NCBI RefSeq assembly: GCF_002556545.1
Contig: NZ_CP022685.1
Location: forward strand, 7,914,001 to 7,978,000
Source: Streptomyces formicae
GTDB lineage: Bacteria; Actinomycetota; Actinomycetes; Streptomycetales; Streptomycetaceae
Length of the DNA: 64,000 nt
Direction of reading: 5' to 3'
The notes below the pieces were generated by a model. That model ran no database searches and was not told the origin of the DNA. It was given only the letters and a program-made list of their open reading frames with translations. The position numbers were made by a program, and so were the translations under genes. This document shows positions 12,286 through 61,989 of this stretch, in pieces (the stretch's first letter is position 1; each line of letters opens with the position of its first letter).

Positions 12286-13527
12286 CTAGCGGCCCGCCTT
12301 GCGCTTGTTCCAGACGTCGAAGCCGACCGCGGCGAGCAGCACGAGCCCCTTGATGACCTGCTGGTAGTCCGTGCCGATGCCGACCAGCGACATGCCGTTG
12401 TTCAGGACGCCGAGGACGAGGCCGCCGATGACCGCGCCCATCACCGTGCCGACGCCGCCGCTCATCGAGGCGCCGCCGATGAACGAGGCGGCGATCGCCT
12501 CCAGTTCGAAGTTGAGACCGGCCTGCGGCGTGCCCGCGTTCAGGCGTGCCGCGTACACGCAGCCCGCGAGCGCCGCGAGGACGCCCATGTTCACGAAGAC
12601 CAGGAAGGTGACCCGCTTGTCCTTGACGCCCGACAGCTTCGCCGCGGCCTTGTTGCCGCCGAGGGCGTACACGTGGCGGCCGATGACGGCGTTGCGCATG
12701 ACGTAGCCGAGCGCGATGAGCAGGCCGCACATGATGAGCATGACGACGGGCACGCCGTGGAAGCTGGCGAGGGTGAGGGTGAACGCCACCACGGCCGCGG
12801 TCATCGCCACGCACTTCGCCGCCCACAGACCGGTCGGCAGGACGTCGAGTTCGTAGGCCAACTGCCGCTTGCGGTCGCGCCGTTCACGCAGCAGCAGGAA
12901 GGCGACGGCGAGCAGGCCGAGGACCAGCGTCGGGTTGTGGTACTGGGTGTAGGGGCCCATCTCGGGGATGAAGCCCTTGGCGATGTTCTGGAAGCCCTCG
13001 GGGAACGGCGCGAGGGACTGGCCCTCCAGGACGATCTGGGTGAGTCCGCGGAAGAGCAGCATCCCGGCCAGCGTCACGATGAAGGACGGGATGCCGACGT
13101 AGGCGATGAAGAAGCCCTGCCAGGCCCCCGCGACCGCGCCGATCAGGAGCGAGAGGACCAGGGCGAGCACCCAGGGCATGTCGTGCTTGACCATCATGAC
13201 CGCCGACACGGCGCCGACGAAGGCGACCAGCGAGCCCACGGAGAGGTCGATGTGGCCCGCGATGATGACGATCATCATGCCGATGGCCAGGATGAGGATG
13301 TAGCCGTTCTGCTGGATCAGGTTGGAGACGTTGTTCGGGAGCAGCAGCGTGCCGTCGGTCCAGATCTGGAAGAGGACGACGATGAACGCCAGGGCGATGA
13401 GCATGCCGTACTGGCGCATGTTGGAGCGCACGCTCCGCAGCAGCAGCGCGCCCGCCGAACGCCGCGCGGGCGGCGGGGCGGCGGACGCGTCCCTGGAGGA
13501 GCCCGGGGGAGTGGTCGTGGTCGTCAT
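12286..13527 (-). CDS. mmsB: Multiple-sugar ABC transporter permease (GguB/MmsB/XylH type)
   Basis: A 413-residue inner-membrane permease. It carries the family block GHIDLSVGSLVAFVGAVSAVMM early and SFIGGASMSGGVGTVMGAVIGGLVLGVLNNGMSL late, typical of ribose/xylose-type (CUT2) permeases. The length above 400 and the mid-protein charged loop RERRDRKRQLAYEL are typical of GguB/MmsB rather than RbsC. It is the last gene of the chvE-mmsA-mmsB import operon, 7 bp after mmsA. Substrate choice is set by the binding protein. Confidence 0.9.
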   Translation of the reverse strand: MTTTTTPPGSSRDASAAPPPARRSAGALLLRSVRSNMRQYGMLIALAFIVVLFQIWTDGTLLLPNNVSNLIQQNGYILILAIGMMIVIIAGHIDLSVGSLVAFVGAVSAVMMVKHDMPWVLALVLSLLIGAVAGAWQGFFIAYVGIPSFIVTLAGMLLFRGLTQIVLEGQSLAPFPEGFQNIAKGFIPEMGPYTQYHNPTLVLGLLAVAFLLLRERRDRKRQLAYELDVLPTGLWAAKCVAMTAAVVAFTLTLASFHGVPVVMLIMCGLLIALGYVMRNAVIGRHVYALGGNKAAAKLSGVKDKRVTFLVFVNMGVLAALAGCVYAARLNAGTPQAGLNFELEAIAASFIGGASMSGGVGTVMGAVIGGLVLGVLNNGMSLVGIGTDYQQVIKGLVLLAAVGFDVWNKRKAGR

Positions 13528-13534
13528 GGCGGCC

Positions 13535-15100
13535 TCAGCTCTTGGTGCTTCTGGTCTGGGTCATGTGGCGCATCAGGAGTTCCTGGGTGGCCTCCGCGCG
13601 CGTGACCTCACCGGTCAGGCGGCCCTCGGCCATCGTGTAGATCCGGTCGCACATCCCGAGCAGCTCGGGAAGTTCGGAGGAGATGAACAGGACCGCCTTG
13701 CCCTGCGCGGCGAGCGTGTCGATGACCGTGTAGATCTCGTACTTCGCGCCCACGTCGATGCCGCGCGTCGGCTCGTCGAGGATCAGGACCTCGGGGTCGG
13801 CGTGGATCCACTTGCTCAGGACGACCTTCTGCTGATTGCCGCCGGAGAGCCTGCCCACCTCCTCGAAGACGGTGGGCGCCTTGATGTTCATGGTCTTGCG
13901 GTAGCGCTCGGAGACCGAGCGTTCGTGGTGCCCGTCCACGACGCCGCGGCGCCGCATGCCGGGCAGCGAGGCCAGCGAGATGTTGCGGTTGATGTCGTCG
14001 ATCAGGTTGAGCCCGTACCGCTTGCGGTCCTCGGTGACGTACGCGATGCCCGCGTCGACCGCGGCGGGCACAGTCCGCGTCACCACCCGGCGGCCGTTGA
14101 CCGCCACCTCCCCGGCGACGTAGACGCCGTACGAGCGGCCGAAGACGGACATCGCGAGCTCGGTGCGGCCCGCGCCCATCAGGCCCGCGATGCCGACGAT
14201 CTCGCCGCGCCGCACGGTGAGCGACACGTCGTCGACGACCGTGCGCTGGTGGTCGACCGGGTGCCGCACCGTCCAGCCCGCCACGGACAGCGCGGGCGAG
14301 CCCGCGTCCTCGCCCGCATAGGGCGTACGGTCGGGGAAGCGGTGGTCGAGGTCGCGCCCCACCATGCCCCGGATGATGCGGTCCTCCGACAACTCGGCCT
14401 GGGCGCCCGGGGATTCGCGGACCGTCAGGGTCTCGATGGTCCGCCCGTCGCGCAGGATGGTCACCGCGTCGGTGACGGCCCGGATCTCGTTCAGCTTGTG
14501 CGAGATGATGATGCAGGCGATGCCCTGCTCGCGCAGTTCCACGATGAGGTCGAGCAGCTTCGCGCTGTCGTCGTCGTTGAGCGCGGCCGTCGGCTCGTCC
14601 AGGATGAGCAGCCGCACCTCCTTCGACAGGGCCTTGGCGATCTCCACGAGCTGCTGTTTGCCCACGCCGATGTCGGCGACCGGCGTCTGCGGCTTCTCGC
14701 GCAGGCCGACCCGCTTCAGGAGCGCGTCCGCCCTGCGCAGCGTGCCGTTCCAGTCGACGAAGCCGCCGCGCGCCTGCTCGTTGCCGAGGAAGATGTTCTC
14801 CGCGATCGACAAGTAGGGGACGAGTGCCAGCTCCTGATGGATGATCACGATGCCCCGGCGCTCGCTGGCCCGGATGTCCTTGAAGGCCACCGGCTCGCCC
14901 TCGAAGAGGATCTCCCCGTCGTAACTCCCGTGCGGATGGACGCCGCTGAGGACCTTCATCAGCGTCGACTTGCCCGCGCCGTTCTCCCCGCAGATCGCGT
15001 GGATCTCCCCGGGCCGCACGGTCAGGTGCACGTCGGAGAGCGCCGTGACGCCGGGGAACGTCTTGGTGATGGCGCGCATCTCCAGGATCGGCGCGCTCAC
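13535..15100 (-). CDS. mmsA: Multiple-sugar ABC transporter ATP-binding protein (MmsA/GguA type)
   Basis: A 521-residue double ATPase that powers CUT2 sugar import. The first domain has Walker [11 protein letters not shown] and Walker [13 protein letters not shown]. The second domain has the degenerate Walker [11 protein letters not shown], the signature [15 protein letters not shown] and Walker [21 protein letters not shown]. The open frame runs far upstream, but the GTG at 15100 overlaps the chvE stop (GTGA) and places Walker A at a normal position. This overlap implies translational coupling. Confidence 0.92.
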
Positions 15101-16206
15101 CTGAGCTGCCCCGCGGTGAAGTAGCCCTCGTCCACGAGGAGTCGGGTGTTCTTCTTGTCGACGCTGACCGGTTCGAGCAGGAAGGCGGGCACGGTCTTCT
15201 CGCCGTTGTCGTAGTCCGTGGTGTTGTTGACCTCGACCTTCTTGCCCGTCAGGACCGCGTCGCCCATCTTCACCGTCTGTGCGGCGAGCTTGCGGGTGTC
15301 CTTGAAGACGGTCTGCGTCTGCTCGCCCCGGATGATCGACTTCACCGACGCCAGCTCGGCGTCCTGCCCGGTGATGACCGGCAGCGGCTCGCTCCTGGTC
15401 CCGTAACCGGCGCTCTTGAGGGCCGAGATGACGCCGATGGAGATCCCGTCGTACGGCGAGAGGACCGCGTCGACGCGCCGCTCGCCGTAGCTCTTGCTGA
15501 TCAGGTCGTCCATGCGCTTCTGCGCGGTGCCGCCGTCCCAGCGCAGCGTGGTCGCCTGGTTCATCCGCGTCTGTTTGCTGCGTACGACGAGCTGCCCGCT
15601 GTCCAGGTACGGCTTCAGCACCTTCATGGCGCCGTTCCAGAAGTACTTGGTGTTGTTGTCGTCGGGGGAGCCCGCGAACAGCTCGACGGAGTAGGAGTCC
15701 CCGGAGTCCTCGTCCGGCTTGCCGAGCTTCAACTTGTCGACGAGGTACTGGCCTTGGAGCCTTCCCACGCGCTCGTTGTCGAACGACGCGTAGTAGTCGA
15801 CGTTCTTGGTGCCGAGGACGAGACGGTCGTACGAGATCACGGGGATGCCCGCGTCGTGCGCGCGCCGCAGCACGTCGGTGAGCGCGGAGCCGTCGATCGC
15901 GGCGACCACCAGGAGCCGGTGCCCCTTGGTGATCATGTTTTCGAGCTGGGCGACCTGGTTCTCCACCTTGTCGTCGCCGTACTGGAGGTCGGTCGCGTAA
16001 CCGGCCTTCTTGAACTGCGACGCCATGTTCCTGCCGTCGGCTATCCACCGCTCGGACGCCTTGGTGGGCATCGCGAGTCCGATGGTGCCGCCCTTGCCGT
16101 CGGCGGGGCGGTAGCGGCTGCCGCCCTTGGCCTCCTGGCCGCAGGCGGTGAGCGACAGGGTGAGTACCGCGGCGGTCGCGGTGAGGGCGAGCGTGCGGGT
16201 GCGCAT
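15097..16206 (-). CDS. chvE: Sugar-binding lipoprotein of ABC importer (ChvE/XylF type)
   Basis: A 369-residue secreted lipoprotein: signal peptide with lipobox LSLTAC (Cys22), then a periplasmic-binding-protein domain beginning [22 protein letters not shown]. The long N-terminal match and the [24 protein letters not shown] block are typical of ChvE-like galactose/arabinose/xylose-binding proteins. It delivers sugar to MmsA/MmsB. It sits 3 bp after the TIM-barrel gene, so it is co-transcribed with the upstream catabolic genes. Confidence 0.88.
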
Positions 16207-16209
16207 GGG

Positions 16210-17178
16210 TCAGTCCCCTTCCGGGGTGGGGAATCGGGGCAGCTCGCCGGGGCTCCGCGAGCCGAGCGGCGACATGCCGCCGTCCGCGCCGTGCCGGGCG
16301 AGCAGATCGAGGACGAGGCGGCCGCGGCGCACGCGCTCGCGGGCGGTGGCGAGGGTGTGCTCGCGCAGGTGGGCACCGTAGGGATAGATGCCGGGCGACT
16401 TGCTGAGGCCGAACTTCACATAGAGCGGTGCGCCGCGCCGGATCAGCTCGGCGACCTCGTACATCCGGACGTAGCCGCCGAGGTCGTCGGGCGCCTCGAC
16501 GTACAGGTCCATGGGGGCGCTGCTGACCCGGCGGATCTCGGTGAGGTGATCCGACGTCAGATCGGACGGCACGTTCAGGGAGTCGGCGCCGAGCCGCTCG
16601 TACACCGCGTACGAGGCGGGATTGACCGGCCCCGTCAGGGCGGACAGCTTGAACGTGGTGTCGGCGGGCAGTACGCCCGCGGCGCGCATCCTGTGCAGGG
16701 TCCACAGCACGCCCTCATCGGCGACGAGCAGGCACCGCACGCCCAACTCGGCGGCGCGCAGGGCGTCTTCGACACACCCGGCGAGCGCGTCGTGGCCCCG
16801 GGCACGGAGCCCGCCACCACCGGATTCGGTGCGGGTCGAGCCCCCGATGTCCCAGGTGCCGCGCGGCCCGGTGAACAGACAGAGCTCGATGTCCCGCTCG
16901 GCGCAGGACTCCACCATCTCGGTGATCTCGGCATCGGTGAGCATCCAGACACCGCTGCCCTGACTGATCCGGTGCACGGGCACGTCGAGGCGCGCACTCT
17001 CCTTGAGCACGACGCCGAGCGCTTCGGGCCCCTCCACCGAGGGGATCTCGGTGCGCCAGGTGCCGCCGTCGGGAAAAGCGTGGGGCGAGGCGTCGGTGGG
17101 GTCGATGGCGGGCACGGGATGCCCGATACGGGTCAGGGCTGCGACGCCGGGGCGTCGGACGGTCGGGGGCGGGGGCAC
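16210..17178 (-). CDS. TIM-barrel protein, possibly U32-peptidase-related
   Basis: A 322-residue cytoplasmic protein. Alternating strands and helices suggest a TIM barrel: [22 protein letters not shown] near the end, [16 protein letters not shown] in the middle, and a [12 protein letters not shown] loop. It resembles conserved actinobacterial proteins sometimes labelled U32-like. I see no clear protease motif, so function is unknown. Its fixed place between sugar-acid catabolic genes and a sugar importer suggests a role in that sugar's metabolism, for example aldolase- or epimerase-like. GTG 17178 follows AGAGGAG; the upstream frame extension lacks an RBS. Confidence 0.6.
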
Positions 17179-17271
17179 GGCACTCCTCTGTTCGAGATGT
17201 CGGACTGCGTTCGGTTCATTGGGCAGGGGTGAGTGAGGGACGCGGGAGGCGCGGTCGCGGCGGGGGCGGTG

Positions 17272-17320
17272 CTTGGGGGTGCGGGGAACTGCGCGACCAG
17301 CCACCACCGGCCCGCACCCC
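17272..17320. repeat. GCGGGGAACTGCGCG-type intergenic repeat, copy 1
   Basis: GGGGGTGCGGGGAACTGCGC, a spacer, then CCCGCACCCC forms an imperfect hairpin between the alcohol dehydrogenase and TIM-barrel genes. The core GCGGGGAACTGCGCG (17281-17295) recurs exactly, inverted, at 49815-49829. From memory this core is frequent in Streptomyces intergenic DNA. Confidence 0.65.
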
Positions 17321-17325
17321 ACGGT

Positions 17326-18339
17326 TCAAGGGCGCAAAAGCACCTTCCCGGTCGCGGGATCACCCCCACCGACAAGAGCCACCGCCTCCCCGAACCGCTC
17401 CAGAGGAAACTCATGCGTGATCAGCGACGCGGGATCGATGAGCCCCACCCCGAACGCCCGCACCGCATCCGCCCAGTCCGCGGACGCCGCCCCGAACACG
17501 GACCGCACCTCCAGCTGACTAAGAGAAAGATGCACGGGATCGATCCCCACGGCCTCCTCCGTGAACATCCCGGTGAGCACGACCCGCCCGCCCCTGCGCG
17601 CGAGCAGACACGACGACGCGGCAGTGGTCGGCGCCCCCGCGGTCTCCACGACGAGGTCGAAGGCCCCCCGCGCGGACTCGGCCTCGCCGGGGGAGAGCGC
17701 CGAGGTCGCCCCGAACTCCCGCGCCCGCGCACCCCGCGCCCCGCGCGGATCGACCACCACCAGCTCACCGGGGCCGTAGGCCGCGAGCAACTGCACCGCG
17801 AGCAGCCCGAGCGTCCCCGCGCCGACCACGGCGATCCGCTCACCGGCCCGCGGCCGCCCCGCCCGGACCGCCGCCGCGACGACCGCGGCCGGTTCCAGAA
17901 GGGCGGCGGCCCGCAGGTCCGCGTCGTCGCGCAGGAGGTGCAACAGCCGTGCGGGCACGGTCAGATGGTCGGCGAAGGCGCCGGGTTCGGTGAAGCCGGT
18001 CTCCGCGTACCCGCCGGTGCACAGGCTCGTCTCCCCGCACCGGCACCGCTCGCAGACACCGCACGCCCGGAACCCCTCGGCGACGATCCCGCGCCCGAGC
18101 AGCCCGGGATCGACGCCCGCGCCGACCGCCGCGACGGTCCCGGACCACTCGTGGCCGGGGATCACGGGGTAGCGCACGTACGCCGCGTCGCGATGCCCGT
18201 CGTACACCTCGCGGTCGCTCATGCAGATGCCCGCGGCGGCCACCCGGACGAGGACCTCTCCGGGGCCCGGGGCGGGGATGTCCCTGTCGACCAGCCGGTG
18301 TTCACCCGGCCGCTCGACGACGATCGCGCGGCTGCTCAC
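17326..18339 (-). CDS. Zinc-dependent alcohol/polyol dehydrogenase
   Basis: A 337-residue medium-chain dehydrogenase/reductase. It has the catalytic zinc region GICMSDREVY and PGHEWSG, the four-cysteine structural zinc loop CGVCERCRCGETSLC, and the NAD(P) motif IAVVGAGTLGLLAVQLLAAYG. It likely oxidises a sugar alcohol or sugar-acid hydroxyl. GTG 18339 overlaps the dehydratase stop (GTGA), so the two are coupled. It is probably one step in the sugar-acid pathway of this locus. Confidence 0.88.
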   Translation of the reverse strand: MSSRAIVVERPGEHRLVDRDIPAPGPGEVLVRVAAAGICMSDREVYDGHRDAAYVRYPVIPGHEWSGTVAAVGAGVDPGLLGRGIVAEGFRACGVCERCRCGETSLCTGGYAETGFTEPGAFADHLTVPARLLHLLRDDADLRAAALLEPAAVVAAAVRAGRPRAGERIAVVGAGTLGLLAVQLLAAYGPGELVVVDPRGARGARAREFGATSALSPGEAESARGAFDLVVETAGAPTTAASSCLLARRGGRVVLTGMFTEEAVGIDPVHLSLSQLEVRSVFGAASADWADAVRAFGVGLIDPASLITHEFPLERFGEAVALVGGGDPATGKVLLRP

Positions 18340-19514
18340 TCCCCGCCCCCGTCCGCCGCCCCGCCCGGCGCCCGCTTCTCCCAGCCCTCGGCCCACAGGT
18401 CGAACCGCGCCTGCTGCTGCGGGAACTCCGCCGCCGCGTCGACGTCGAGCTCGACGCCGAGTCCTGGCGCGTGCGACAGCTCGAAGCAGCCCGTCTCCGG
18501 GTCGACCCGGGGGGCGCCCTTGACGACCTTCTTGATGTCGGCGTCCGCGAAGTCGTTGAAGTGCTCCAGGATCTTGAAGTTCGGTGCGGTGAAGCCGACG
18601 TGGAGGGAGGCGGCGGTCAGGACCGGGCCGCCGACGTTGTGCGGGGCGACGAGCAGGTAGTGCGTCTCGGCGGTGGCCGCGAGCTTGCGGGTCTCCCAGA
18701 TGCCGCCGATGTGGCCCACGTCGGGCTGGATGATGTCGGCCGCCTGGCTCTCGAACAGTTCGCGGAACTCGATCCGGTCGTGGATCCGCTCGCCCGTCGC
18801 CACCGGCATGTCCACCCGCGCCGCGACCTTCTCCAGGGCCTTGAGGTTCTCCGGCGGCACCGGCTCCTCCAGCCACGCGGGCCGGAACGGCGCGAGGTCG
18901 CGGGCGAGCCGGATCGCCGTGGCGGGCGAGAACCTGCCGTGCATCTCCAGCATCAGCTCGGCGTCGGGCCCGATCGCGTCGCGCACCGCCTCGATCAACG
19001 ACACGGCGTACCGGGTCCGTTCGTGGTCGAGCTCGTAGTGGCCCGTCCCGAAGGGGTCGATCTTCAGCGCCCGGTAGCCGCGCTCCATGACCCCGCGGGC
19101 GGCCTCGTGGTACGCCTCGGGGGTGCGCTCCGTGGTGTACCAGCCGTTCGCGTACGCCTTCACGCGGTCGGTGACCTTGCCGCCGAGCAGCTGCCACACG
19201 GGCACCCCGAGCGCCTTGCCCTTGATGTCCCAGCAGGCCATCTCGACCACGGCGATGCCGGACATGACGATCTCGCCCGCCCTGCCGTAGTCGCCGTACT
19301 TCATCCTGCGCACGAGATCCTCGATCGCGAACGGATCGGATCCGGCGATGTGGTGGGCCTCCGCCTCGCGGAGGTAGCCGATGAGCGCGTCGGTGCGGCC
19401 GAGCATGCGGGTCTCGCCGACACCGGTCAGACCCTCGTCGGTGTGCACCTGGACGTAGGTGAGATTGCGCCAGGGCGTGCCGACCACGTGCGTGCTGATT
19501 CCCGTAATGCGCAA
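18336..19514 (-). CDS. Enolase-superfamily sugar-acid dehydratase (galactonate dehydratase-like)
   Basis: A 392-residue mandelate racemase/muconate lactonizing enzyme family member. Motifs: KIDPFG (catalytic Lys region), LEMHGRFSP (first metal ligand with the His-Gly-Arg of galactonate-type dehydratases), WLEEPVPPENL, VATGERIHDR, and the C-terminal catalytic His in VAPHNVGGPVLTAA. These point to dehydration of a hexonate such as galactonate. Homologues start at RITGISTHVV, so I choose TTG 19514, with AAGGGA about nine bases upstream. An ATG 12 codons earlier is possible but less likely. Confidence 0.85.
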   Translation of the reverse strand: MRITGISTHVVGTPWRNLTYVQVHTDEGLTGVGETRMLGRTDALIGYLREAEAHHIAGSDPFAIEDLVRRMKYGDYGRAGEIVMSGIAVVEMACWDIKGKALGVPVWQLLGGKVTDRVKAYANGWYTTERTPEAYHEAARGVMERGYRALKIDPFGTGHYELDHERTRYAVSLIEAVRDAIGPDAELMLEMHGRFSPATAIRLARDLAPFRPAWLEEPVPPENLKALEKVAARVDMPVATGERIHDRIEFRELFESQAADIIQPDVGHIGGIWETRKLAATAETHYLLVAPHNVGGPVLTAASLHVGFTAPNFKILEHFNDFADADIKKVVKGAPRVDPETGCFELSHAPGLGVELDVDAAAEFPQQQARFDLWAEGWEKRAPGGAADGGGE

Positions 19515-19540
19515 GGCAGTTGTCCCTTGACTTGTTCGGT

Positions 19541-19561
19541 ATTTCGTCACACGTTCGAAAT
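19541..19561. promoter_or_regulatory. Candidate IclR operator in divergent promoter
   Basis: ATTTCG and CGAAAT form a perfect inverted repeat spaced by nine bases. A second, partly overlapping CGTCAC/GTGACG pair extends to 19573. It is 27 bp upstream of the dehydratase start and 172 bp from the iclR start, in the only divergent gap of the locus. Operator function is inferred from symmetry and position. Confidence 0.4.
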
Positions 19562-19732
19562 GGTGGCGTGACGGTATTCACGGCGGCAGGAAGGTGTCAA
19601 TGGGTCGCGCACAACGGCCCGGAGGGACCGTCGACGGCCATTGCGCCGCGAACTGCCGCGTGCCTACCCTGTGTTCGTCATACCGATCAGCGGCCGGTAT
19701 TCCGGACGCGCAGGGTGGGAGAGGCCGAACTC

Positions 19733-20500
19733 ATGGGACGACTGGTGCCCGCGGTGACCAGGTCGCTGGACATACTCGAACTGTTCCTGGAGGGCGAGGG
19801 AACGCTCTCCGCGCCCGAGGTCACCCGCAAGCTCCAGCTGCCGCGCACCACGGTGCACGAGCTGCTCACCACCCTGGCCGCCCGCTCCTACCTCGTCCAG
19901 ATCCCCGACCAGCCGGGCCGCTACCGCCTGGGCGTGCGCACCTACCAGCTCGGCAGCCGGTACGCGGAGCAGCTCGACCTCGCGGCCGAGGGGCAGCAGG
20001 TGGCCCGCGAGGTCGCCGAGACCTGCGACGAGACCGTGCACGTCGCCGTCCTGGAGGACACCGACGTCATCTACATCGCCAAGGTCGACTCCACGCACGC
20101 CGTGCGCATGGTCTCCGCGGCGGGCCGCAGGCTGCCCGCGCACTGCACGTCCGTCGGCAAGATGCTGCTCGCCTCGCTCCCCGGTGATCAGCTCGAATCG
20201 CGCCTGCGCGGAAGGGAGTTCACCGCGATGACCCCGGCCAGCATCACCGATCCGGCGGAGCTGCTCGCCGCGCTCACCGGAATCAGGGAGCGCGGCGTCG
20301 CGGTCGAGCACCAGGAGTCCAACCCGGACGTGAGCTGTGTGGCCGCGCCGGTGCGGGACCGCTCGGGCCGGGTCGTCGCGGCGCTCTCCATCTCCGTACC
20401 GATGATCCGCTGGAGCGAGGAGCGCGAGGGCGAACTGGCCGGACTCGCCGTCAAGGGCGCCGCCGACCTGTCCGTCCGCCTCGGCCACCGGGGCGCGTGA
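19733..20500 (+). CDS. IclR family transcriptional regulator
   Basis: A 255-residue regulator. The N-terminal winged helix-turn-helix (about 5-65: LSAPEVTRKLQLPRTTVHELLTTLAARSYL) is followed by the IclR effector-binding GAF-like domain (LPAHCTSVGKMLLASLPGDQL and VEHQESNPDVSCVAAPVRDRSGRVVAALSISVP). It probably represses or activates the divergent sugar-acid operon in response to a pathway intermediate. ATG 19733 follows GGGAGAGG. It is coupled to the SMP-30 gene by a TGATG overlap. Confidence 0.9.
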   Translation: MGRLVPAVTRSLDILELFLEGEGTLSAPEVTRKLQLPRTTVHELLTTLAARSYLVQIPDQPGRYRLGVRTYQLGSRYAEQLDLAAEGQQVAREVAETCDETVHVAVLEDTDVIYIAKVDSTHAVRMVSAAGRRLPAHCTSVGKMLLASLPGDQLESRLRGREFTAMTPASITDPAELLAALTGIRERGVAVEHQESNPDVSCVAAPVRDRSGRVVAALSISVPMIRWSEEREGELAGLAVKGAADLSVRLGHRGA

Positions 20501-21357
20501 TGGGCCGCGCGTACGAGGTGGCGGTGCGCGAGCAGGCCGTGCTCGGTGAGGGCCCCACCTGGGACCCCGCCGCCGGACACCTCGTCTGGGTCGACATCCT
20601 CGCCTCCCGCGTCCACACGTATGCCCCCGCGACCGGCAGGCGCACGGTCATGGCCACGGAGCAGCACGTCGGCGCGGCCAAGCCGCGCGCGGGCGGCGGC
20701 CTGGTGGTCAACCTCAGGGACGGCGTCGGCCTGTACGGCCCCGGAGGGGCGTCCTTCGACTGGCTGGTGCGCGACCCGGTGCCCGGCAGGCGCGGCAACG
20801 ACGCGGCGGTCGCCCCCGACGGCGCGCTCTGGGCGGGCACGATGCGCTACGACGAGGCGCCGGGCGGCGGCGGCCTCGCCCGGGTCGCCCCCGACGGCAC
20901 CGTCACCGCACAGCCCGGCGAGGTCACCGTCAGCAACGGCACGGGCTGGAGCCCGGACGGACGGCTCATGTACTACGTCGACAGCCCCACCCGCCGCGTC
21001 GACGTCTTCGACTACGACCCTGACTCCCAACGCTCCCTGAACCGCCGCCCGTTCGCGTCCATCGAGGAGGGTGAGGGCTTCCCCGACGGGCTCACGGTCG
21101 ACGCCGAGGGGCGCGTCTGGGTGGCGCTGTGGGACGGCGCCGAGGTCCGCGCGTACGCCCCGGACGGCCGGCTCGACCACGCCGTCGCGCTTCCGGTGCG
21201 CCGCCCCACCGCCTGCGCCTTCGGCGGCCGGGACCTGCGGGACCTCTACGTCACCACGGCCCGCACCGGGCTCGACCGCCCGCACCCCTTGTCGGGCTCG
21301 GTCCTGGTCGTGCCGGACGCGGGCCGCGGCATGCCGGGCGTCGCCTTCGCGGGCTAG
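20500..21357 (+). CDS. SMP-30/gluconolactonase family lactonase
   Basis: A 285-residue six-bladed beta-propeller. Metal-ligand blocks of the regucalcin/gluconolactonase family are present: EGPTWDPAAGHLVWVDI (Glu ligand), RGNDAAVAPDGALWAGT (Asn-Asp), SNGTGWSPDGRLMYYVDS (Asn), and EGFPDGLTVDAEGRVWVA (Asp). It likely opens a sugar lactone to the acid used by the dehydratase. The ATG overlaps the iclR stop by one base (a GTG three bases earlier is also possible). It ends 1 bp from the convergent lipoprotein gene. Confidence 0.88.
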   Translation: MGRAYEVAVREQAVLGEGPTWDPAAGHLVWVDILASRVHTYAPATGRRTVMATEQHVGAAKPRAGGGLVVNLRDGVGLYGPGGASFDWLVRDPVPGRRGNDAAVAPDGALWAGTMRYDEAPGGGGLARVAPDGTVTAQPGEVTVSNGTGWSPDGRLMYYVDSPTRRVDVFDYDPDSQRSLNRRPFASIEEGEGFPDGLTVDAEGRVWVALWDGAEVRAYAPDGRLDHAVALPVRRPTACAFGGRDLRDLYVTTARTGLDRPHPLSGSVLVVPDAGRGMPGVAFAG

Positions 21358-21358
21358 C

Positions 21359-22357
21359 TCAGCCCTTGAGCTCTCGGAGGTACTTCCCGAACTTCTCCAG
21401 GCCGTCGATGTCGCGCGGCCCGCTGATGCCCTCGTTGTAGTCGAGGACGAAGAAGTTGTTCTTCCTGACGGCGGGCAGCTCCTTGGTGTGCGGGGAGTTC
21501 TTCAGGAACTCGATCTTCTCCTTCGCGGGCTTGTCGCCGTAGTCGAAGATGATGACGACCTCGGGCTCGGCCTTGGTCACGGACTCCCAACTCACCTGCG
21601 TCCAGCGCTCGTCGAGGCCGTCGAAGACGTTCCTGCCCCCCGCCGTCTTGATGATGTCGTTGGGCGGCACCTGGCTGCCCGCCGTGAACGGCTTGTCCGT
21701 GCCGGAGTCGTAGAGGAAGACCGGCACGGGACTGCCGCCCTTGGGCGCCTTCGCCGCCACCGCCGCCACGCGCTTCTTCAGGTCGCCGACGACCCGGTCC
21801 GCCCTCTTCTCGACCTGGAAGATCTTCCCGAGCCGCTCCAGATCGCTGTAGAGCGCGTTGAACGGGGTGACCTTCTGCGGGAACCCCGGGTAGTTGAAGC
21901 AGCTCTCCGTGTGCAGGAAGCTCTGGATGCCGAGCTTGTCCAGGATCTTCGGGGTGATGCCGCGCTGGTCGCTGAAGCCGGAGTTCCAGCCCGCGACGAC
22001 GAAGTCGGACTTGGCCTGGACGACGAGTTCCTTGTTGAGCAGGTCGTCGCCGAGCATCTTCACCTTGGCGTACTCGGACGCCCAGGGGGACTCGCTCACG
22101 GGCGGGTTGGCGGGCGGCATCACGTATCCGTGCACGTGCTCGGTCAGGCCCAGGCTGAACAGCTTGTCGGCGCTGCCGCCCTCGTACGCCACCGCGCGCT
22201 GAGGGACCTTGTACGCGACGTCCTCGCCGCAGCGCTGCACGGTGGTCGTCTTCGAGCCCTCGGCGTCGGCGTCGGACGCGACGTCGGCGCCGCAGCCGCT
22301 GAGGACCAGGGTGGCCGCGAGCGCGGAGCCCAGGGCGATGGATCGGGTGTGGTGCAT
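21359..22357 (-). CDS. FecB/FepB-type metallophore-binding lipoprotein
   Basis: A 332-residue cluster A-8 substrate-binding protein: signal peptide with lipobox LVLSGC (Cys22), then the two-lobed domain beginning KVPQRAVAYEGGSADKLFSLGL. This type binds iron-siderophores, cobalamin or other chelated metals, and lacks the His-rich loop of ZnuA-type free-zinc receptors. It is the last gene of the leftward operon that starts at 27401, 15 bp after the ATPase gene. Under the Zur-box model it would bind a zinc-loaded metallophore on the cell surface. Confidence 0.88.
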   Translation of the reverse strand: MHHTRSIALGSALAATLVLSGCGADVASDADAEGSKTTTVQRCGEDVAYKVPQRAVAYEGGSADKLFSLGLTEHVHGYVMPPANPPVSESPWASEYAKVKMLGDDLLNKELVVQAKSDFVVAGWNSGFSDQRGITPKILDKLGIQSFLHTESCFNYPGFPQKVTPFNALYSDLERLGKIFQVEKRADRVVGDLKKRVAAVAAKAPKGGSPVPVFLYDSGTDKPFTAGSQVPPNDIIKTAGGRNVFDGLDERWTQVSWESVTKAEPEVVIIFDYGDKPAKEKIEFLKNSPHTKELPAVRKNNFFVLDYNEGISGPRDIDGLEKFGKYLRELKG

Positions 22358-22372
22358 GGGAGTCGGTGCCTT

Positions 22373-23146
22373 TCAGGGGGTGGAGTGCAGGGAGTACAGA
22401 AGCTGCGGGTCGCCCGTCAGCGGATGCGGCACGACGGTGGCCCGGACGCCGAACACCTCGGCCACCAGCTCCTCCGTGAGGACCTGCGCGGGCGTCCCCG
22501 ACGCGACGAGGCGTCCCTGTGACAGCACGCCGAGCCGGTCGCAGGCGGCCGCCGCGAGGTTCAGGTCGTGCAGCACGACCAGGACGGTGGGCGCCGCGCC
22601 GCGCAGGTGGGAGAGGACCTCGACCTGGTGGCGCACGTCGAGGTGGTTGGTCGGCTCGTCGAGCACCAGGATCTTTGGCTCCTGGACGAGCGCACGGGCC
22701 AGCAGCACGCGCTGGCGCTCCCCGCCGGACAGGGTGAGGACGCCGCGCCCCGCCAGGTGGTGGATGCCGAGCCGCTCCATCGCCCGGACGCACAGGGCCC
22801 GTTCACGCTCGCCGAGTGCCTGGTTGCCCCGCTGGTGCGGCGCACGGCCGAGCGCGACGACCTCCTCGACGGTGAAGTCCAGGTCGACGGCGCCGTCCTG
22901 CGTCATGGCGGCGACGAACTGCGCGCTGCGGCGCATCGGCAGACGGCTGATGTCGTCGTCACCGACCCGGACGGTGCCCCGGTCCTGGCGCAGCGCGCGG
23001 TACACGCAGCGCAGCGCTGTGGACTTGCCGCTGCCGTTCGGTCCTACGAGGCCCACCACCTCGCCGCAGCGCACGTCGAGAGAGAGGTCGTGCACCAGGC
23101 TCATCCCGTCGATGTCGACACCGAGCCCTTCGATGCGCAGGTCCAT
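22373..23146 (-). CDS. FecE-type metallophore ABC transporter ATPase
   Basis: A 257-residue ATPase with Walker A GLVGPNGSGKSTALR (about 33-47), signature LSGGERQRVLLARAL, and Walker B ILVLDEPTNHLDVRHQVEVL. This arrangement is typical of FecE/FepC/BtuD. It energises uptake through the adjacent FecCD permease. The ATG lies one base after the permease stop codon. The metal-complex substrate is inferred from the operon. Confidence 0.9.
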   Translation of the reverse strand: MDLRIEGLGVDIDGMSLVHDLSLDVRCGEVVGLVGPNGSGKSTALRCVYRALRQDRGTVRVGDDDISRLPMRRSAQFVAAMTQDGAVDLDFTVEEVVALGRAPHQRGNQALGERERALCVRAMERLGIHHLAGRGVLTLSGGERQRVLLARALVQEPKILVLDEPTNHLDVRHQVEVLSHLRGAAPTVLVVLHDLNLAAAACDRLGVLSQGRLVASGTPAQVLTEELVAEVFGVRATVVPHPLTGDPQLLYSLHSTP

Positions 23147-23147
23147 C

Positions 23148-24257
23148 TCAACGCCCCCCGAAGACATGGCCCTTGCGGCGCATGAGCGTGATGAACACCG
23201 GCACCCCGACGAGAGCGGTGATGACGCCGAGCGGCAGTTCACGCGGCGCGACCACCGTCCGGGACAGCAGATCGACCCAGACCATGAACACCGCGCCGAC
23301 CAGCGGCGCGACGGCAAGCACCCGCGCGTGCGTGGTGCCGACCACCATCCGCACCAGGTGCGGCATGACGAGCCCCACGAAGCTGATGGCGCCGCTGACG
23401 GCGACCATCACGCCGGTGATCAGCGACACCAGGACGAGCAGCGACGTGCGCTGCCGGTCGGGGCTGACACCGAGGCTCGCGGCGGTCTCGTCGCCGAGCG
23501 AGAGGACGTCCAGGGAGCGGGCGTGGCGGTACAGCACGGCGAGCCCGAGCAGGACCACCGCGGACACGACGGGCAGCGCGCCCCAACTGGCAGCGCCGAA
23601 GCCGCCCATCGTCCAGTACAGGACCATGCCGGTCGCCTCGCTGTCGGGCGCGAAGTAGATGATCACGCTCATCACGGCCTGGAAGCCGAGGGACAGGGCG
23701 ACCCCCGTGAGCACCAGGCGCAGCGGTGAGAGGGCGCCCCTGCTGGCCGAGGCGGCGTACACGAGGAAGGAGGCGACGAGCGCACCGGCGAAGGCACCCG
23801 CGGACACGGCGTACACGCCGAGCGCGGCGAGCCCTCCGGTGACGGTCACCGCGACGGCGCCCACCGACGCGCCCGACGAGACACCGAGGACGAAGGGGTC
23901 GGCGAGCGCGTTGCGGACCATCGCCTGGATGGCCACGCCGACGGCGCTCAGACCGGCCCCGACAAGCGCGGCCAGGAGTACGCGCGGCGTCCGGATCTGC
24001 CAGATGATCTGGTACGTCGTGCTCTCGTCGGCGCCGATCCGGCCGCCGGTGAGCGCGGCCCACAGATAGCGGGCGGTCTCGCCGGGGGTGACCACCGCGG
24101 CACCGAGCCCGATCGCCACCACGACGGAGACGGCCAGGAGCAGGAAGAGAAGGACACAGGTCAGCAGGAGCGCCCCGGGGGAGGCCAGCCGGCCCCGTAC
24201 GCCGGAAGGTCCGACGCGCGGGACGGACCGGGCGGGCGCTTCGACGGTCGTGCTCAC
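23148..24257 (-). CDS. FecCD/BtuC-type metallophore permease
   Basis: A 369-residue permease of the FecCD family with about ten membrane segments. Typical blocks are RTPRVLLAALVGAGLSAVGVAIQAMVRNALADPFVLGVSSGASVGA, the cytoplasmic LGVSPDR region, and GAISFVGLVMPHLVR near the ATPase-contact loop. It works as a homodimer with the ATPase and lipoprotein. The frame is open beyond its start, but GTG 24257 overlaps the MFS stop (GTGA). Confidence 0.9.
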   Translation of the reverse strand: MSTTVEAPARSVPRVGPSGVRGRLASPGALLLTCVLLFLLLAVSVVVAIGLGAAVVTPGETARYLWAALTGGRIGADESTTYQIIWQIRTPRVLLAALVGAGLSAVGVAIQAMVRNALADPFVLGVSSGASVGAVAVTVTGGLAALGVYAVSAGAFAGALVASFLVYAASASRGALSPLRLVLTGVALSLGFQAVMSVIIYFAPDSEATGMVLYWTMGGFGAASWGALPVVSAVVLLGLAVLYRHARSLDVLSLGDETAASLGVSPDRQRTSLLVLVSLITGVMVAVSGAISFVGLVMPHLVRMVVGTTHARVLAVAPLVGAVFMVWVDLLSRTVVAPRELPLGVITALVGVPVFITLMRRKGHVFGGR

Positions 24258-25522
24258 GCGGCCTCCGCCTCCTTGCGGGCGGGACCGGCGCGCAGCACGA
24301 GCACGGCCGCTCCGACGGCGGCGACGACGAGCGCCCCGAACACCGCGGCGACCCCCGGATATCCGGCGAGCCCGAGGCCCGCGCCGCCGAGCGCGGCGCC
24401 GACGAAGACGCCGAGGCTCATCCCCGCGGCGTTGATGCCCAGCGCCGCACCGCGCAGCCCAGGCCCGCAGCGCCGTACGACCAGGCTCACCGCGCAGGCC
24501 GCGACGACGGCGTGGCTCGCCGCGTGCAGCGAGGTCAGCGCGAGGGCGAGCGGCAGCCAGTGCGTGAAGTAGAAGCCCACGACGGACACGAGCGCCGCCA
24601 ACAGGCCGATGAACAGCAGCCGTTCGGTGCCGAGGCGCGGCTCGGCCGCGTTGGTGAGCCGCCCGGTGAGGAGGTTGCTGACGAAGAACGACGCGCCGCT
24701 CAGCGTCCAGACGAACGCGAAGAGCCCGGCGTCCAGGTCGAACCGCTCCTCGTAGAACGCCGCGAGATACGACAGGTATCCCATGAACACGGCGGTGCGC
24801 AGGAGCGCGATCAGGAGCAGCGGTACGACGCCGCGCACGGCGCCGAGAGCCCTGAACGAGGCTATGTAGCCCAGGCGTTGACCGCCGGAAGCGGTCTCGT
24901 CCGCGACCGAGGTGTCCTCGCGGCGCAGCACGAACACCACCGCGAGCAGCAGCGAGAGCACGGTCACCGCGAACAGGTCGCCCCGCCAGCCCCAGATCAG
25001 CGCGGGCAGCGCGATCACCGGGGCCGCGAGCATCGCCGTCATCGACTGGGTGGCGGTCACCAGGGTCGCCGCACGGCCCGCCGCCCTGCCGGTGCCGAAG
25101 CGGTCGGCGGCCGCGGCGGTGAGCGCCGGGTTCAGGACGGACGTACTGGCGCCGACGAGCAGACAGAACACGGCGAGCAGCAGGAAGTCGCCGCTCGCGC
25201 CGAGCGCCGAGGAGAGCCCGAGCGCGGCGAGTCCGCCCGCCACCGCCCACCGCCTGGGCACCCGGTCGATCAGCGGCGCGAGCGCGGTACCCACCAACAG
25301 GGCGGCCAGACCGCCGAGTCCGCGCAGTCCGCCCATCGCGGCGACGCCGCTGCCCGCCTCGTCGGCGATGGGCACCAGATACGTACTGAAGACGGTGAAG
25401 GGCAGCAGGCCCACGGCGGAGGCGAGGAGCACGGGCCACAGCGTCCGTGCCATGCGCAGATCGCCGGGCAGGGGCTCGTCGGCTTCGTTTCCCGCGGGGT
25501 TCTTGACGGCGTCGACGCTCAC
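24254..25522 (-). CDS. MFS exporter of the metallophore locus
   Basis: A 422-residue major facilitator protein with twelve predicted helices, for example LWPVLLASAVGLLPFTVFSTYLVP and LLFIGLLAALVSVVGFYFTHWLPLALAL. Sitting between a presumed biosynthetic pair and an A-8 importer, it best fits the exporter of the chelator, as CntE does in the staphylopine system. The start is GTG 25522, which overlaps the DUF364 stop (GTGA). The substrate is inferred from context only. Confidence 0.85.
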   Translation of the reverse strand: MSVDAVKNPAGNEADEPLPGDLRMARTLWPVLLASAVGLLPFTVFSTYLVPIADEAGSGVAAMGGLRGLGGLAALLVGTALAPLIDRVPRRWAVAGGLAALGLSSALGASGDFLLLAVFCLLVGASTSVLNPALTAAAADRFGTGRAAGRAATLVTATQSMTAMLAAPVIALPALIWGWRGDLFAVTVLSLLLAVVFVLRREDTSVADETASGGQRLGYIASFRALGAVRGVVPLLLIALLRTAVFMGYLSYLAAFYEERFDLDAGLFAFVWTLSGASFFVSNLLTGRLTNAAEPRLGTERLLFIGLLAALVSVVGFYFTHWLPLALALTSLHAASHAVVAACAVSLVVRRCGPGLRGAALGINAAGMSLGVFVGAALGGAGLGLAGYPGVAAVFGALVVAAVGAAVLVLRAGPARKEAEAA

Positions 25523-26358
25523 GCACCCGCTCCGTTCGAGGCGAGGTCGGCGCGGTACCGGTACATGGGCGTGGGGTCGGCGCTGAACTGGGAGAACGTG
25601 AACGGTTCCGCGTTGAGTCCGGTGACGCCCGCGCCGAGGAAGGCGCGGGCCACCGCGCTGCCGCTCTGGGCGTAGACGACCAGCGGCACCTCGTGCTCGA
25701 CGCAGTGCGCGAGGATCAGGTCGAAGGTGCCGTTGCTGAGCGTCATGCCGGTGGCGACCACCGCGTCGGCGCTCGCGATGACCTCGGTCATGTCGTCGCT
25801 GACGGGCTCGCCCCACGCGGTCGTGCGCAGGTTCAGATCGCAGGGCAGGCAGACGCCGCCCCGCTCCCGTATCGCGGCGACCAAGGGGTTGACGACGCCG
25901 ATCAGGGCGACCCGCGCGCCGGGCGCGATGTCGAGGAGACCGGCGATCGCGGCGTCCCGGGCCTCGGCCCTGACCTCGGGCGTACCGGTGGGCAGGAGCA
26001 CGCGCTCGGCGTCGTCGGCGTCGCGGTGCGGCCGGACCCGGGCCAGGTAGGCGTCGAGCGCGGCGGTCCGCACGGGCGCGCACTCATGACGCAGGAGCTT
26101 GTCCAGGGAATGCCCCGAGGCGTTCTCGCAGAACTCCGGGGAGAGTTCACCGGCCTCGAAGGAGCAGGCGCCGAACGCGTCGCCGACGCGGAGCAGCAGG
26201 TAGTGGTTGTGGTACGTGACGTCGCCGCCTGCCAGCCGGGTCGTGTGGTACAGCCAGAAGGCGCTGGTGACCGTCAGGTCCCTGGGGTCGGGGCCGTGGG
26301 CGCCCGCGAGGACGGCGTCGGTGAGTTCGGCGACGGTCCGGGGTGGGGAGTGCGGCAT
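25519..26358 (-). CDS. DUF4213/DUF364 (heavy-metal chelation fold) protein
   Basis: A 279-residue cytoplasmic protein. The N-terminal part (about 1-110, WLYHTTRLAGGDVTYHNHYLLLRVGDAFGACSFE) fits DUF4213. The C-terminal part (about 130-275) is a Rossmann-like DUF364 domain: GARVALIGVVNPLVAAIRE, then DAVVATGMTLSNGTFDLIL. Pfam describes DUF364 as a putative heavy-metal chelation domain on structural grounds; no enzyme activity is established. In this operon it might bind the metal complex or perform a tailoring or release step. Confidence 0.75.
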   Translation of the reverse strand: MPHSPPRTVAELTDAVLAGAHGPDPRDLTVTSAFWLYHTTRLAGGDVTYHNHYLLLRVGDAFGACSFEAGELSPEFCENASGHSLDKLLRHECAPVRTAALDAYLARVRPHRDADDAERVLLPTGTPEVRAEARDAAIAGLLDIAPGARVALIGVVNPLVAAIRERGGVCLPCDLNLRTTAWGEPVSDDMTEVIASADAVVATGMTLSNGTFDLILAHCVEHEVPLVVYAQSGSAVARAFLGAGVTGLNAEPFTFSQFSADPTPMYRYRADLASNGAGA

Positions 26359-26408
26359 GTGGGTGCTCTCTGTGGTCTCTGTGCTGTCTTGAGGGGCGGG
26401 TCGGCGGG

Positions 26409-27401
26409 TCAGGAGGCGGTGGCGGGCCACGGCGCGGTGGACCAGGGGTGGCGCAGCTGGTCGAGCGAGGTGATCTCGTGCGGCTTCAACGTGTCGATGT
26501 CCAGGGCCTGTTCGTGCCGGGCGTAGGCGCTCTCGACGTAGCGGTGACCGGTGTCGGCCGCGATGAAGACGTAGGTGCGCGAGTCGTCCCCGCGCCGCTC
26601 CCACAGCGCGCCGAGGTAGGCGGCGCCCGCCGAGAGCCCGGCGAAGATGCCGCTGGTGCGCAGGAGCGCGACCGCGCCGGACAGGGCGCACTCGAAGTTG
26701 ACCCAGTGCACCCGGTCGTACAGCTCGTGCCGCACGTTGCGGAACTCGATGGCGCTGCCGATCCCGGCGATGATCATGTCCGGGTCGGCGACGTGCTCGG
26801 AGCCGAAGGTGACGCTGCCGAAGGGCTGCACGCCGACGAGCGAGACATCGCGGCCCGCCGCGCGCAGATAGGTGGCGAGGGCGCCGGTCGACGCACCCGA
26901 GCCCACGCCGCCGACCAGTGCCAGCGGCCCGGTGGGCAGGTCCTGGTCGATGGCGTCGGCGACCTCGCGGTAGCCGGTGTAGTGGATGTCGTCGTGGTAC
27001 TGCCGCATCCAGTGGTACGAGGGGTTGTCGGCCAGGATCTCGGCGATCCTGCGCACCCTCAGCTCCTGGTCGAGGCGGAGGTTCCGGGACGGCGGGACCT
27101 GTTCGAGGGTGGCGCCGAGTATCTCCAACTGGACGCGGGTGGAGCGGTCCACGGTCGTGGAGCCCACGATGTGGCACTTCATTCCGTAGCGGTGGCAGGC
27201 CAGGGCGAGGGCCTGCGCGTAGATGCCGCTGGAGCTGTCGACGAGGGTGTCGCCCGGTTCGACGGCGCCCGATTCGAGCAGTTGCCGGACGGCGCCGAGG
27301 GCCGAGTAGATCTTCATGGTCTCGAAGCGGAGGCAGGCCAGGTCCGGCGCGAGGGATATGAGGTCGGGCTTCTTCACCGCTTCGGCGATGTGCGCGTGCA
27401 T
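26409..27401 (-). CDS. Fold-type-II PLP-dependent enzyme (cysteine synthase/SbnA-like)
   Basis: A 330-residue member of the tryptophan synthase beta/cysteine synthase superfamily. The probable PLP lysine is Lys30 in FETMKIYSALGAV. The carboxylate-binding loop is DSSSGIYAQA (55-64), close to the SSSGN loop of SbnA-like 2,3-diaminopropionate precursor synthases, with Ile replacing Asn. The phosphate-binding loop is GGVGSGASTG (164-173). Such enzymes do beta-replacement on O-phospho- or O-acetylserine. The gene is first in the leftward operon, directly under the Zur-like box, opposite an amino-acid kinase gene that could supply its phosphorylated substrate. Confidence 0.85.
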   Translation of the reverse strand: MHAHIAEAVKKPDLISLAPDLACLRFETMKIYSALGAVRQLLESGAVEPGDTLVDSSSGIYAQALALACHRYGMKCHIVGSTTVDRSTRVQLEILGATLEQVPPSRNLRLDQELRVRRIAEILADNPSYHWMRQYHDDIHYTGYREVADAIDQDLPTGPLALVGGVGSGASTGALATYLRAAGRDVSLVGVQPFGSVTFGSEHVADPDMIIAGIGSAIEFRNVRHELYDRVHWVNFECALSGAVALLRTSGIFAGLSAGAAYLGALWERRGDDSRTYVFIAADTGHRYVESAYARHEQALDIDTLKPHEITSLDQLRHPWSTAPWPATAS

Positions 27402-27489
27402 GACGGAGATCCCCCAGAGGGACGTGGTGAGGGCAGGAGGTGCCTGGGGGAGGGCGTCGCTGCGTGTGCCGCTCCCCGGGACGCCGAGA

Positions 27490-27518
27490 GCATCACACTA
27501 GATGAAAATGATTGTCAA
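27490..27518 (-). promoter_or_regulatory. Candidate promoter of the leftward metallophore operon
   Basis: On the minus strand a perfect -35 TTGACA (27518-27513) is followed after 17 bp by TGATGC (27495-27490). The Zur-like box covers the -35 hexamer, so a bound repressor would block RNA polymerase. The start codon is about 90 bp downstream. Confidence 0.45.
27503..27517. promoter_or_regulatory. Zur box (zinc-uptake repressor operator)
   Basis: TGAAAATGATTGTCA differs by one base from TGAAAATGATTTTCA, the 7-1-7 palindrome known for Streptomyces Zur. Its arms pair at six of seven positions. It lies midway between the divergent PLP-enzyme and kinase genes, over the -35 positions of both candidate promoters. 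An AT-rich site like this stands out in such GC-rich DNA. A Fur-family site of another specificity is the main alternative. Confidence 0.75.
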
Positions 27519-27531
27519 GACCGTGTAGGGT
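27503..27531 (+). promoter_or_regulatory. Candidate promoter of the kinase gene
   Basis: TAGGGT at 27526-27531 can serve as a -10, with the weak -35 TGAAAA at 27503-27508, 17 bp upstream and inside the Zur-like box. The GTG start is 30 bp further on. Confidence 0.35.
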
Positions 27532-27561
27532 CGGCGCATCGCCGTACGAGGGAGGAATCGC

Positions 27562-28545
27562 GTGACGCTGTACCAGGAGGCCCCGGCCCGGCCCCGCCGA
27601 TCGGACCGAGGCCCCGTACGAACGGGAGTGGGCACCGCGTTCGGCACCTTCGGCGAACTGCTCCAGGGGCAACTGCCCGAGCGGGACGGGGACTTCCTCG
27701 TGACCCTGCCGGTCGCCCGCTGGACCATGGCGACCTTCAGATCCGGCTCCGCGTCCGGCGATATCGAGGTCCGCCCGCACCACAAGACCAAGGCGCTCGG
27801 GCTCGCCCGGATGATCGCGGAGGCGGCACCGGTGGGCGCGCGGCCGGTAGGGGGCGGCGTGCTCACGGTGAGCAGCGTGATTCCCGAGGGCAAGGGGCTC
27901 GCCAGCTCCTCCGCCGACCTCGTCGCCACCGCGCGGGCGGTCGGCAGGGCCCTCGGCGTTCCCATGCCGCCCGCCAGGATCGAGCGCCTGCTCTCCAGGA
28001 TCGAACCCACCGACGGCGTGCTCTACCCCGCGATCGTCGCCTTCCACCACCGCACCGTGCGCCTCCGCGCAGTCCTCGGCTCGCTGCCCGCCATGGCCGT
28101 GGTCGGCATCGACGAGGGTGGCTCGGTCGACACCGTGGACTTCAACCGCATCCCCAAACCGTTCACGCCCGCCGACCGGCGCGCCTACGCCGACCTGCTC
28201 GGACGGCTCACCGACGCGGTGCGCACGCACGACCTCGCGGAGGTCGGCAGGGTCGCGACCCGCAGTGCGCTGCTGAACCAACGCCTCAGGCACAAGCGCG
28301 CGTTGGAGCCGATGCGGGCGATCTGTCGCGAGGTCGGCGGCCTGGGCGTCGCCGTCGGACACAGCGGTACGACACTGGGCGTACTGCTCGACGCCACGGA
28401 CCCCTCGTACACGCGCCGCGTCACGGCGGCGGCCCAGGCGTGCGAGGAGGTCGCGGGGGTCGGTGGCGGGGGAGGGGGCGTGCAGGTCTACCGGACCTTG
28501 AGTTTCCGCACCGGGGGCGACCCCTCGGACTCAGCGCGTACGTGA
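27562..28545 (+). CDS. GHMP kinase, PduX-like (L-threonine/serine kinase candidate)
   Basis: A 327-residue GHMP-superfamily kinase. The ATP loop PEGKGLASSSAD lies at 108-119, matching the PduX pattern (P-x-G-K-G-x-A-S-S). The N-terminal GTFGELLQGQLP (28-39) is also PduX-like. PduX phosphorylates free L-threonine for cobalamin assembly. Here no cobalamin genes are nearby; the gene shares the Zur-boxed promoter region with a PLP enzyme that could use an O-phospho amino acid. The substrate is therefore inferred to be Ser, Thr or homoserine. GTG follows GAGGGAGGAAT. Its last 15 bp overlap the convergent NQO-type gene. Confidence 0.8.
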   Translation: MTLYQEAPARPRRSDRGPVRTGVGTAFGTFGELLQGQLPERDGDFLVTLPVARWTMATFRSGSASGDIEVRPHHKTKALGLARMIAEAAPVGARPVGGGVLTVSSVIPEGKGLASSSADLVATARAVGRALGVPMPPARIERLLSRIEPTDGVLYPAIVAFHHRTVRLRAVLGSLPAMAVVGIDEGGSVDTVDFNRIPKPFTPADRRAYADLLGRLTDAVRTHDLAEVGRVATRSALLNQRLRHKRALEPMRAICREVGGLGVAVGHSGTTLGVLLDATDPSYTRRVTAAAQACEEVAGVGGGGGGVQVYRTLSFRTGGDPSDSART

Positions 28546-57249: not shown

Positions 57250-57675
57250 ATGACCGTTGTCCCGGCACAACAGTCCGGCGGCGGAGGCGGCTCCAGTGGC
57301 CTGTACGACGTCGTGGAGCTCATCCTCGACCGAGGACTGGTCATCGACGCCTTCGTCCGCGTCTCCCTCGTCGGCATCGAGATCCTGAAGGTCGACATAC
57401 GTGTCGTCGTTGCGAGCGTCGACACGTATCTGCGCTTCGCCGAGGCGTGCAACCGCCTGGACCTGGAGTCCGGGCCGCACAAGAGCCCCGGCCTGCCCGA
57501 CCTGGTGGGTGAGGTGACCGAGTCCGGCGCCCGCGGCAAGTCCAAGGGGGCGCTGTCCGGCGCAGCGGAGACCATCTCCGACGCCTTCAAGCAGGCCCGC
57601 GAGGAGGGCCAGGGCGAGGAACGCCCGCGCGCCCGGCGCTCCACCACCTCCCGCAGGAAGGAGGAGAAGGAGTGA
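57250..57675 (+). CDS. gvpA: Gas vesicle structural protein GvpA
   Basis: A 141-residue protein. Residues about 18-70 form the GvpA shell-protein core ([55 protein letters not shown]). It polymerises into the rib helix of the gas vesicle wall. Unlike the roughly 70-residue haloarchaeal GvpA, it has a 65-residue basic/Ser-rich C-terminal extension (KSPGLPDLV...RRKEEKE). Streptomyces have the genes but no clearly shown flotation. GTGA overlap with gvpF. Confidence 0.93.
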
Positions 57676-58412: not shown

Positions 58413-58416
58413 CCCC

Positions 58417-58656
58417 ATGGGACTGCTCGGCGAACTGCTCCTGCTGCCCCTGGCCCCGGCCCGCGGCTCCCTCTGGGTGCTGAGACAAGTGGTCACCGAG
58501 GCCGAACGGCAGTACTACGACCCCTCGGCCATCCGGCGCGAACTCTCCCTCCTCGAAGAACGCCTGGAGGCGGGCGAGATCGACGAGGCCGAGTTCGATC
58601 GGTGCGAGGACGAGCTCCTCGCCCGCCTGCAACACAGGACAGGACAGGACTTCTAG
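58417..58656 (+). CDS. gvpG: Gas vesicle protein GvpG
   Basis: A 79-residue amphipathic helical protein, MGLLGELLLLPLAPARGSLWVLRQVV, followed by a charged coiled region (AIRRELSLLEERLEAGEIDEAEFDRCEDELLARL). This is the GvpG pattern and length. It is an accessory protein of vesicle initiation. The next gene starts one base after its stop. Confidence 0.92.
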   Translation: MGLLGELLLLPLAPARGSLWVLRQVVTEAERQYYDPSAIRRELSLLEERLEAGEIDEAEFDRCEDELLARLQHRTGQDF

Positions 58657-58657
58657 G

Positions 58658-61960: not shown

Positions 61961-61989
61961 AGGCCGGAGACGGAGCGAAGGAGTCAACC

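Follow-up and report, generated by a model that had tools for sequence, protein, structure and literature searches.

A seven-gene block at 21359–28545 of the window, the whole 64,000-nucleotide stretch of Streptomyces formicae DNA analysed here, is best read as a zinc-starvation locus that is repressed by Zur and specifies a zincophore, a reading to which we assign a probability of roughly 70%. The original prediction had described a leftward operon diverging from a GHMP kinase gene with a Zur box between them, and gene coordinates, Pfam matches and an exact motif match all agree with that layout. Six genes run co-directionally on the minus strand and one diverges on the plus strand; counted from the end of the lipoprotein gene, the operon junctions are 15 bp, 1 bp, two successive 4-bp overlaps and 50 bp. 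Curated Pfam cut-offs were passed by six of the seven genes, the exception being the MFS transporter. The importer consists of a lipoprotein substrate-binding protein (21359–22357, minus; PF01497, Peripla_BP_2, 86.7 bits) with a lipobox-like LVLSGC in its sequence, the ABC ATPase of a FecBCD system (22373–23146, minus; PF00005, ABC_tran, 110 bits with the longer ORF scanned), whose start at 23146 was picked by coding score within a listed ORF that extends to 23317, and a FecCD-type permease (23148–24257, minus; PF01032, 300 bits). The presumed exporter, an MFS protein (24254–25522, minus), gave zero matches in a Pfam search at 1e-3 and two weak NCBIfam efflux/MFS matches under cut-off.

Upstream of the transport genes lie a DUF364 protein (25519–26358, minus; PF04016, 41.7 bits against a cut-off of 23) and a PLP enzyme of fold-type II with the SbnA/cysteine-synthase fold (26409–27401, minus; PALP above the curated cut-off), for which K30 is the predicted PLP lysine. 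A model of the DUF364 protein suggests an enolase-N-like plus Rossmann-like fold that matches 3l5o and 3npg, consistent with its membership of PF04016. The divergent gene (27562–28545, plus, with a start that may instead be at 27628) encodes a GHMP kinase with N- and C-terminal domains above cut-off (PF00288 and PF08544), presumed to be a Ser or Thr O-kinase; its earlier label of 'PduX-like' gained no support from Pfam and NCBIfam searches at 1e-3, a negative that would carry weight only if those libraries hold a PduX model. As predicted, the block is free of NRPS genes, with zero NRPS-type matches in the Pfam scan. Two other regions of the window were also noted: genes for a sugar-type ABC transporter and mandelate-racemase-like, dehydrogenase-like, IclR-like and SMP-30 proteins (12286–21357; two recognized by Pfam, the rest by eye), probably a sugar-acid catabolism region adjoining the locus, and a series of small genes (57250–62277) whose ORF translations look, by eye, like those of a gas-vesicle cluster.

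The Zur box, TGAAAATGATTGTCA, occupies 27503–27517 in the divergent promoter region and fits every specified base of tGaNNatSatNNtCa, the S. coelicolor Zur motif that the available text of PMC5472717 derives from ChIP and in which znuA is described as carrying two boxes. Scanning the window for this motif with at most one mismatch returned three sites against 0.11 expected, the only exact one being at 27503–27517. Exact matches occur at three places in the 9.61-Mb genome, the other two falling inside transporter-looking ORFs (L313 and L037). A narrower scan with TGAAAATNATTNTCA, allowing up to two mismatches, found its sole perfect site at the window box; the single one-mismatch site lay elsewhere, with a two-mismatch site 22 bp before it, directly against the start of a znuA-like gene, behind which come ABC ATPase, permease and Fur-family genes. 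Since these next-best sites fall at a znuA-like gene, they serve as an internal positive control for the box scan. With this box the locus carries, upstream of its genes, the 15-bp 7-1-7 motif expected of Streptomyces Zur regulon members. On the reverse strand, the box plus its next base contains, by eye, a −35-like TTGACA facing the PLP operon; a sigma-70 scan of 27380–27640 returned zero promoters.

Relatives of the PLP enzyme (E ≤ 1e-20) were present in 204 of 295 genomes of the genus. We compared 132 loci, namely the window, six plasmid regions and 125 neighbourhoods drawn mainly from the top of the PLP relative list with some weaker matches added, and assigned class letters by gene content, so that the kinase of class A and the lyase of class F are definitions and not findings. 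DUF364 is found in four classes. Class A (11 loci), to which the window locus conforms, has the kinase, PLP enzyme, DUF364, MFS and FecBCD; NRPS queries, taken from these loci only, matched in none of the 11, and nine other genomes of the genus with an uncut class A locus carry kinase relatives at 75–86% identity adjoining the PLP gene. Class B (8 loci) is without the kinase and mostly combines an Opp-type importer and a methyltransferase-like gene with the PLP enzyme, a PhyH oxygenase (7/8), DUF364 and MFS. Class C, the largest of the four with 39 loci, has DUF364, the PLP enzyme, a different MFS family, the kinase (37/39) and mostly FecBCD. Class G (6 loci), again without the kinase, has ATP-grasp, DUF364, PLP, MFS and Opp genes, and two of its members (L096 and L097) include an annotated dipeptide epimerase.

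The classes without DUF364 are D (49 loci, PLP enzyme plus ATP-grasp) and F (15 loci, with an argininosuccinate-lyase-type gene and NRPS matches in 14); four short or ambiguous loci (L044, L117, L127 and L170) were tallied with them. Among class D loci (L063, L066, L067, L100, L111, L113, L114 and others), many contain MFS, methyltransferase and second kinase-like genes and some contain FecBCD, and DUF364 and a Zur box of their own are absent; class D possibly specifies a peptide or metallophore under different control. On a Rhizobium gallicum plasmid (L099:5931–12214), a kinase-like gene and genes for a PLP enzyme, a lyase and an ATP-grasp protein lie side by side, much as in Streptomyces class F.

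The original prediction had proposed looking for conservation of the block next to Zur boxes, and such boxes followed DUF364. Under the strict rule TGANAATNATTNTCA with at most one mismatch, 35 of the 64 DUF364 loci had a site, compared with 2 of the other 68. A weight matrix trained on the class A and B boxes (threshold ≥15), built after the strict-rule result was known, placed a site upstream of a cluster-type gene in 62/64 DUF364 loci against 1/68 PLP loci without DUF364; that single positive (L044) is a locus of the window's own class A type truncated by a contig end. Counted at any position in the locus, the figures were 62/64 and 3/68. Matrix counts for classes A and B are partly circular, so that the clean test comes from classes C and G, where all 45 loci had a matrix site before a cluster gene, and from the five last-fetched loci, four of which belong to two families elsewhere in the class, where all five had a site before the cluster with scores of 25.5–40.5. 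In a separate scan of organism-named loci, covering the best 80 of at least 507 relatives (20 of the 80 duplicating earlier loci), 70 had an upstream site, and of the ten without one, at least five lack the upstream DNA. The compared loci are kin and their box counts are not independent events. Comparison across loci strongly supports the predicted control of the locus by zinc through Zur. DUF364 is the gene that accompanies zinc control over four architectures (A, B, C and G), while the kinase and the type of importer, FecBCD or Opp, vary. Two further Zur-like occurrences were noted: a site scoring 21.7 at L158:15287–15307, in a locus without DUF364 and about 3.8 kb from the nearest recognized gene, and, beside PLP clusters, by-eye sets of ZnuA-like lipoprotein, permease and ATPase genes with their own Zur-like site (L064:13231–18386 and L050, around 6415–7148).

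The PLP tree resolved DUF364-linked enzymes into two groups, A+B+C (SH-aLRT 93) and G (100), and required 3 changes of the DUF364 label against 42 in shuffles, one of the three being L117, a 3.5-kb contig. Of the 295 genomes of the genus, 122 matched a DUF364 subfamily profile (56 with E ≤ 1e-100 by a tally of the listed rows), as did 22 of 296 genomes sampled from the class, these 22 coming from 5 of 114 genera. Carriers among the best 80 organism-named loci include Amycolatopsis tucumanensis, Prauserella flavalba, Actinophytocola xanthii, Kribbella antibiotica and Kitasatospora aureofaciens, and Tsukamurella tyrosinosolvens and Rhodococcus have plasmid-borne copies. Of 1431 PLP homologues and 1028 DUF364 homologues, 120 each were listed, and none of the listed source names pointed to a pathway.

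Computation shows which genes are present, what folds they encode, that the box is conserved and that it goes with DUF364; repression, chemistry and transport are inferred. When zinc is replete, Zur bound to the box would shut off the promoters on both sides. Under zinc shortage, the GHMP kinase would phosphorylate Ser or Thr to an O-phospho amino acid, and the SbnA-fold PLP enzyme, a predicted O-phospho-amino-acid β-substituting synthase, would exchange its phosphate for the amino group of another amino acid, probably aspartate. It is plausible that kinase and PLP enzyme together produce an aminopolycarboxylate in this way, and such a product should be able to bind Zn(II). The MFS protein would then send the molecule out and FecBCD would bring the zinc complex back in. 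DUF364 is a candidate tailoring enzyme or zinc-handling protein, which would either complete the molecule or remove zinc from the imported complex; the role of finishing enzyme is slightly preferred because the DUF364 gene invariably accompanies the PLP gene. An MFS-type gene is present in all 64 DUF364 loci, and an argininosuccinate-lyase-type gene, whose product would cleave the predicted adduct, in none of the 64 compared with 15 of the 68 others.

Aminopolycarboxylate metallophores are already known from actinomycetes, and the locus could be a version of the Zur-controlled EDDS (aes) cluster. [S,S]-EDDS (aes, Amycolatopsis japonicum) and EDHA (Streptomyces scabies) are likewise small amino-acid-derived molecules of this type, EDDS production is under Zur control according to the available text of PMC9252823, as predicted for the window locus, and loci of the class C type are found in Amycolatopsis species. 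By contrast, EDHA is described as iron-responsive in the portion available of PMC10702961, unlike the zinc control predicted here. The aes/EDHA system, in the accounts available, has a four-gene aesA–D core with Streptomyces sp. MA5143a as reference and is found in Burkholderia, with reports from Corynebacterium and Nocardia. Neither DUF364 nor a GHMP kinase figures in the available parts of these cluster descriptions, with which the locus was compared by description and not by sequence, and we consider identity with aes unlikely.

A secreted, Zur-controlled chelator might also act mainly by starving or inhibiting neighbours, given that aspergillomarasmine-type molecules are metal-chelating fungal products of similar chemistry (PMC12751119, in the parts available). 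This we regard as improbable, however, as importer genes accompany 60/64 DUF364 loci (11/68 of the others), consistent with re-uptake. More doubtful still is a metallophore under Zur that chiefly carries cobalt, nickel or copper: aminopolycarboxylates bind several divalent metals, which counts in favour of another cargo, but the predicted control by a zinc repressor points to zinc. Cobalamin or amino-acid-phosphate salvage, the alternative offered by the original prediction, is hardly credible, for although GHMP-superfamily threonine kinases serve cobalamin synthesis and the importer matched many models below cut-off, those for BtuCDF included, an Rfam search of the window and seven related loci gave zero matches of any kind, and hence zero cobalamin riboswitches, at the gathering score and Zur boxes were found instead.

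We regard the putative Zur-repressed zincophore locus as probably a new variant among NRPS-independent zincophore clusters, the comparison with aes being by description. In the literature searched, where subscription papers were mostly outside reach, no account of this gene set came up, nor any paper that ties DUF364 to zincophores or to Zur. A broader proposal, which we hold tentatively and at slightly less than even odds, is that DUF364 marks a widespread, unnamed, NRPS-free class of Actinomycete zincophores, in which kinase–PLP, PLP/PhyH or PLP/ATP-grasp combinations would make aspergillomarasmine-like aminopolycarboxylates under Zur and DUF364 would perform the zinc-specific step, completing the chelator or releasing zinc inside the cell. 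If true, a type of zincophore would be present in a large share of Streptomyces genomes and would be missed by mining for NRPS or opine genes, and its products may resemble aspergillomarasmine-type zinc chelators. DUF364 would also gain a directly testable function, and the domain's label of 'putative heavy-metal chelation' beside metal-type importers would be explained.

Among known zinc-acquisition systems, staphylopine and pseudopaline are zinc chelators that are exported and then imported by ABC transporters, as we propose here. They are built by nicotianamine-synthase-like and opine dehydrogenase enzymes, neither of which is recognized among the Pfam matches of the window block alone. Coelibactin from S. 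coelicolor is also a Zur-controlled Streptomyces zincophore, according to the available text of PMC5472717; it is an NRPS product, whereas the window block has no NRPS. The SbnA/SbnB pathway to L-Dap (staphyloferrin B) has in common with the locus its PLP fold and the O-phospho-amino-acid chemistry predicted here. The window enzyme scored 128.2 bits against the SbnA model TIGR03945, far under the cut-off of 349.95. Of 30 genomes searched, 29 carry DUF364, and in none of these did an SbnB-type gene (PF02423, ornithine-cyclodeaminase) lie within 15 kb of it, although draft contigs could hide some; the nearest PF02423 match was about 15.3 kb away (G173), and in genome G000 the distance exceeds 170 kb. 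We rejected an SbnA–SbnB pathway at this locus, the above-cut-off SbnA and its SbnB-type neighbour sitting elsewhere in the genome. There, at about 4.1 Mb (L303:8338–14886), MbtH-like, SbnA, SbnB-type, TfdA-like and NRPS-like genes, partly recognized by eye, make up a diaminopropionate NRPS-type cluster that is distinct from the window locus.

The closest parallel in chemistry is fungal. As described in the available text of PMC12751119, SbnA couples O-phosphoserine with Glu, and aspergillomarasmine A synthase couples it with Asp without free Dap. The fungal enzyme belongs to a two-gene cluster and is likened to the window enzyme by description, not by sequence. As we propose for the window locus, a single PLP enzyme there makes a metal chelator from O-phosphoserine and aspartate.
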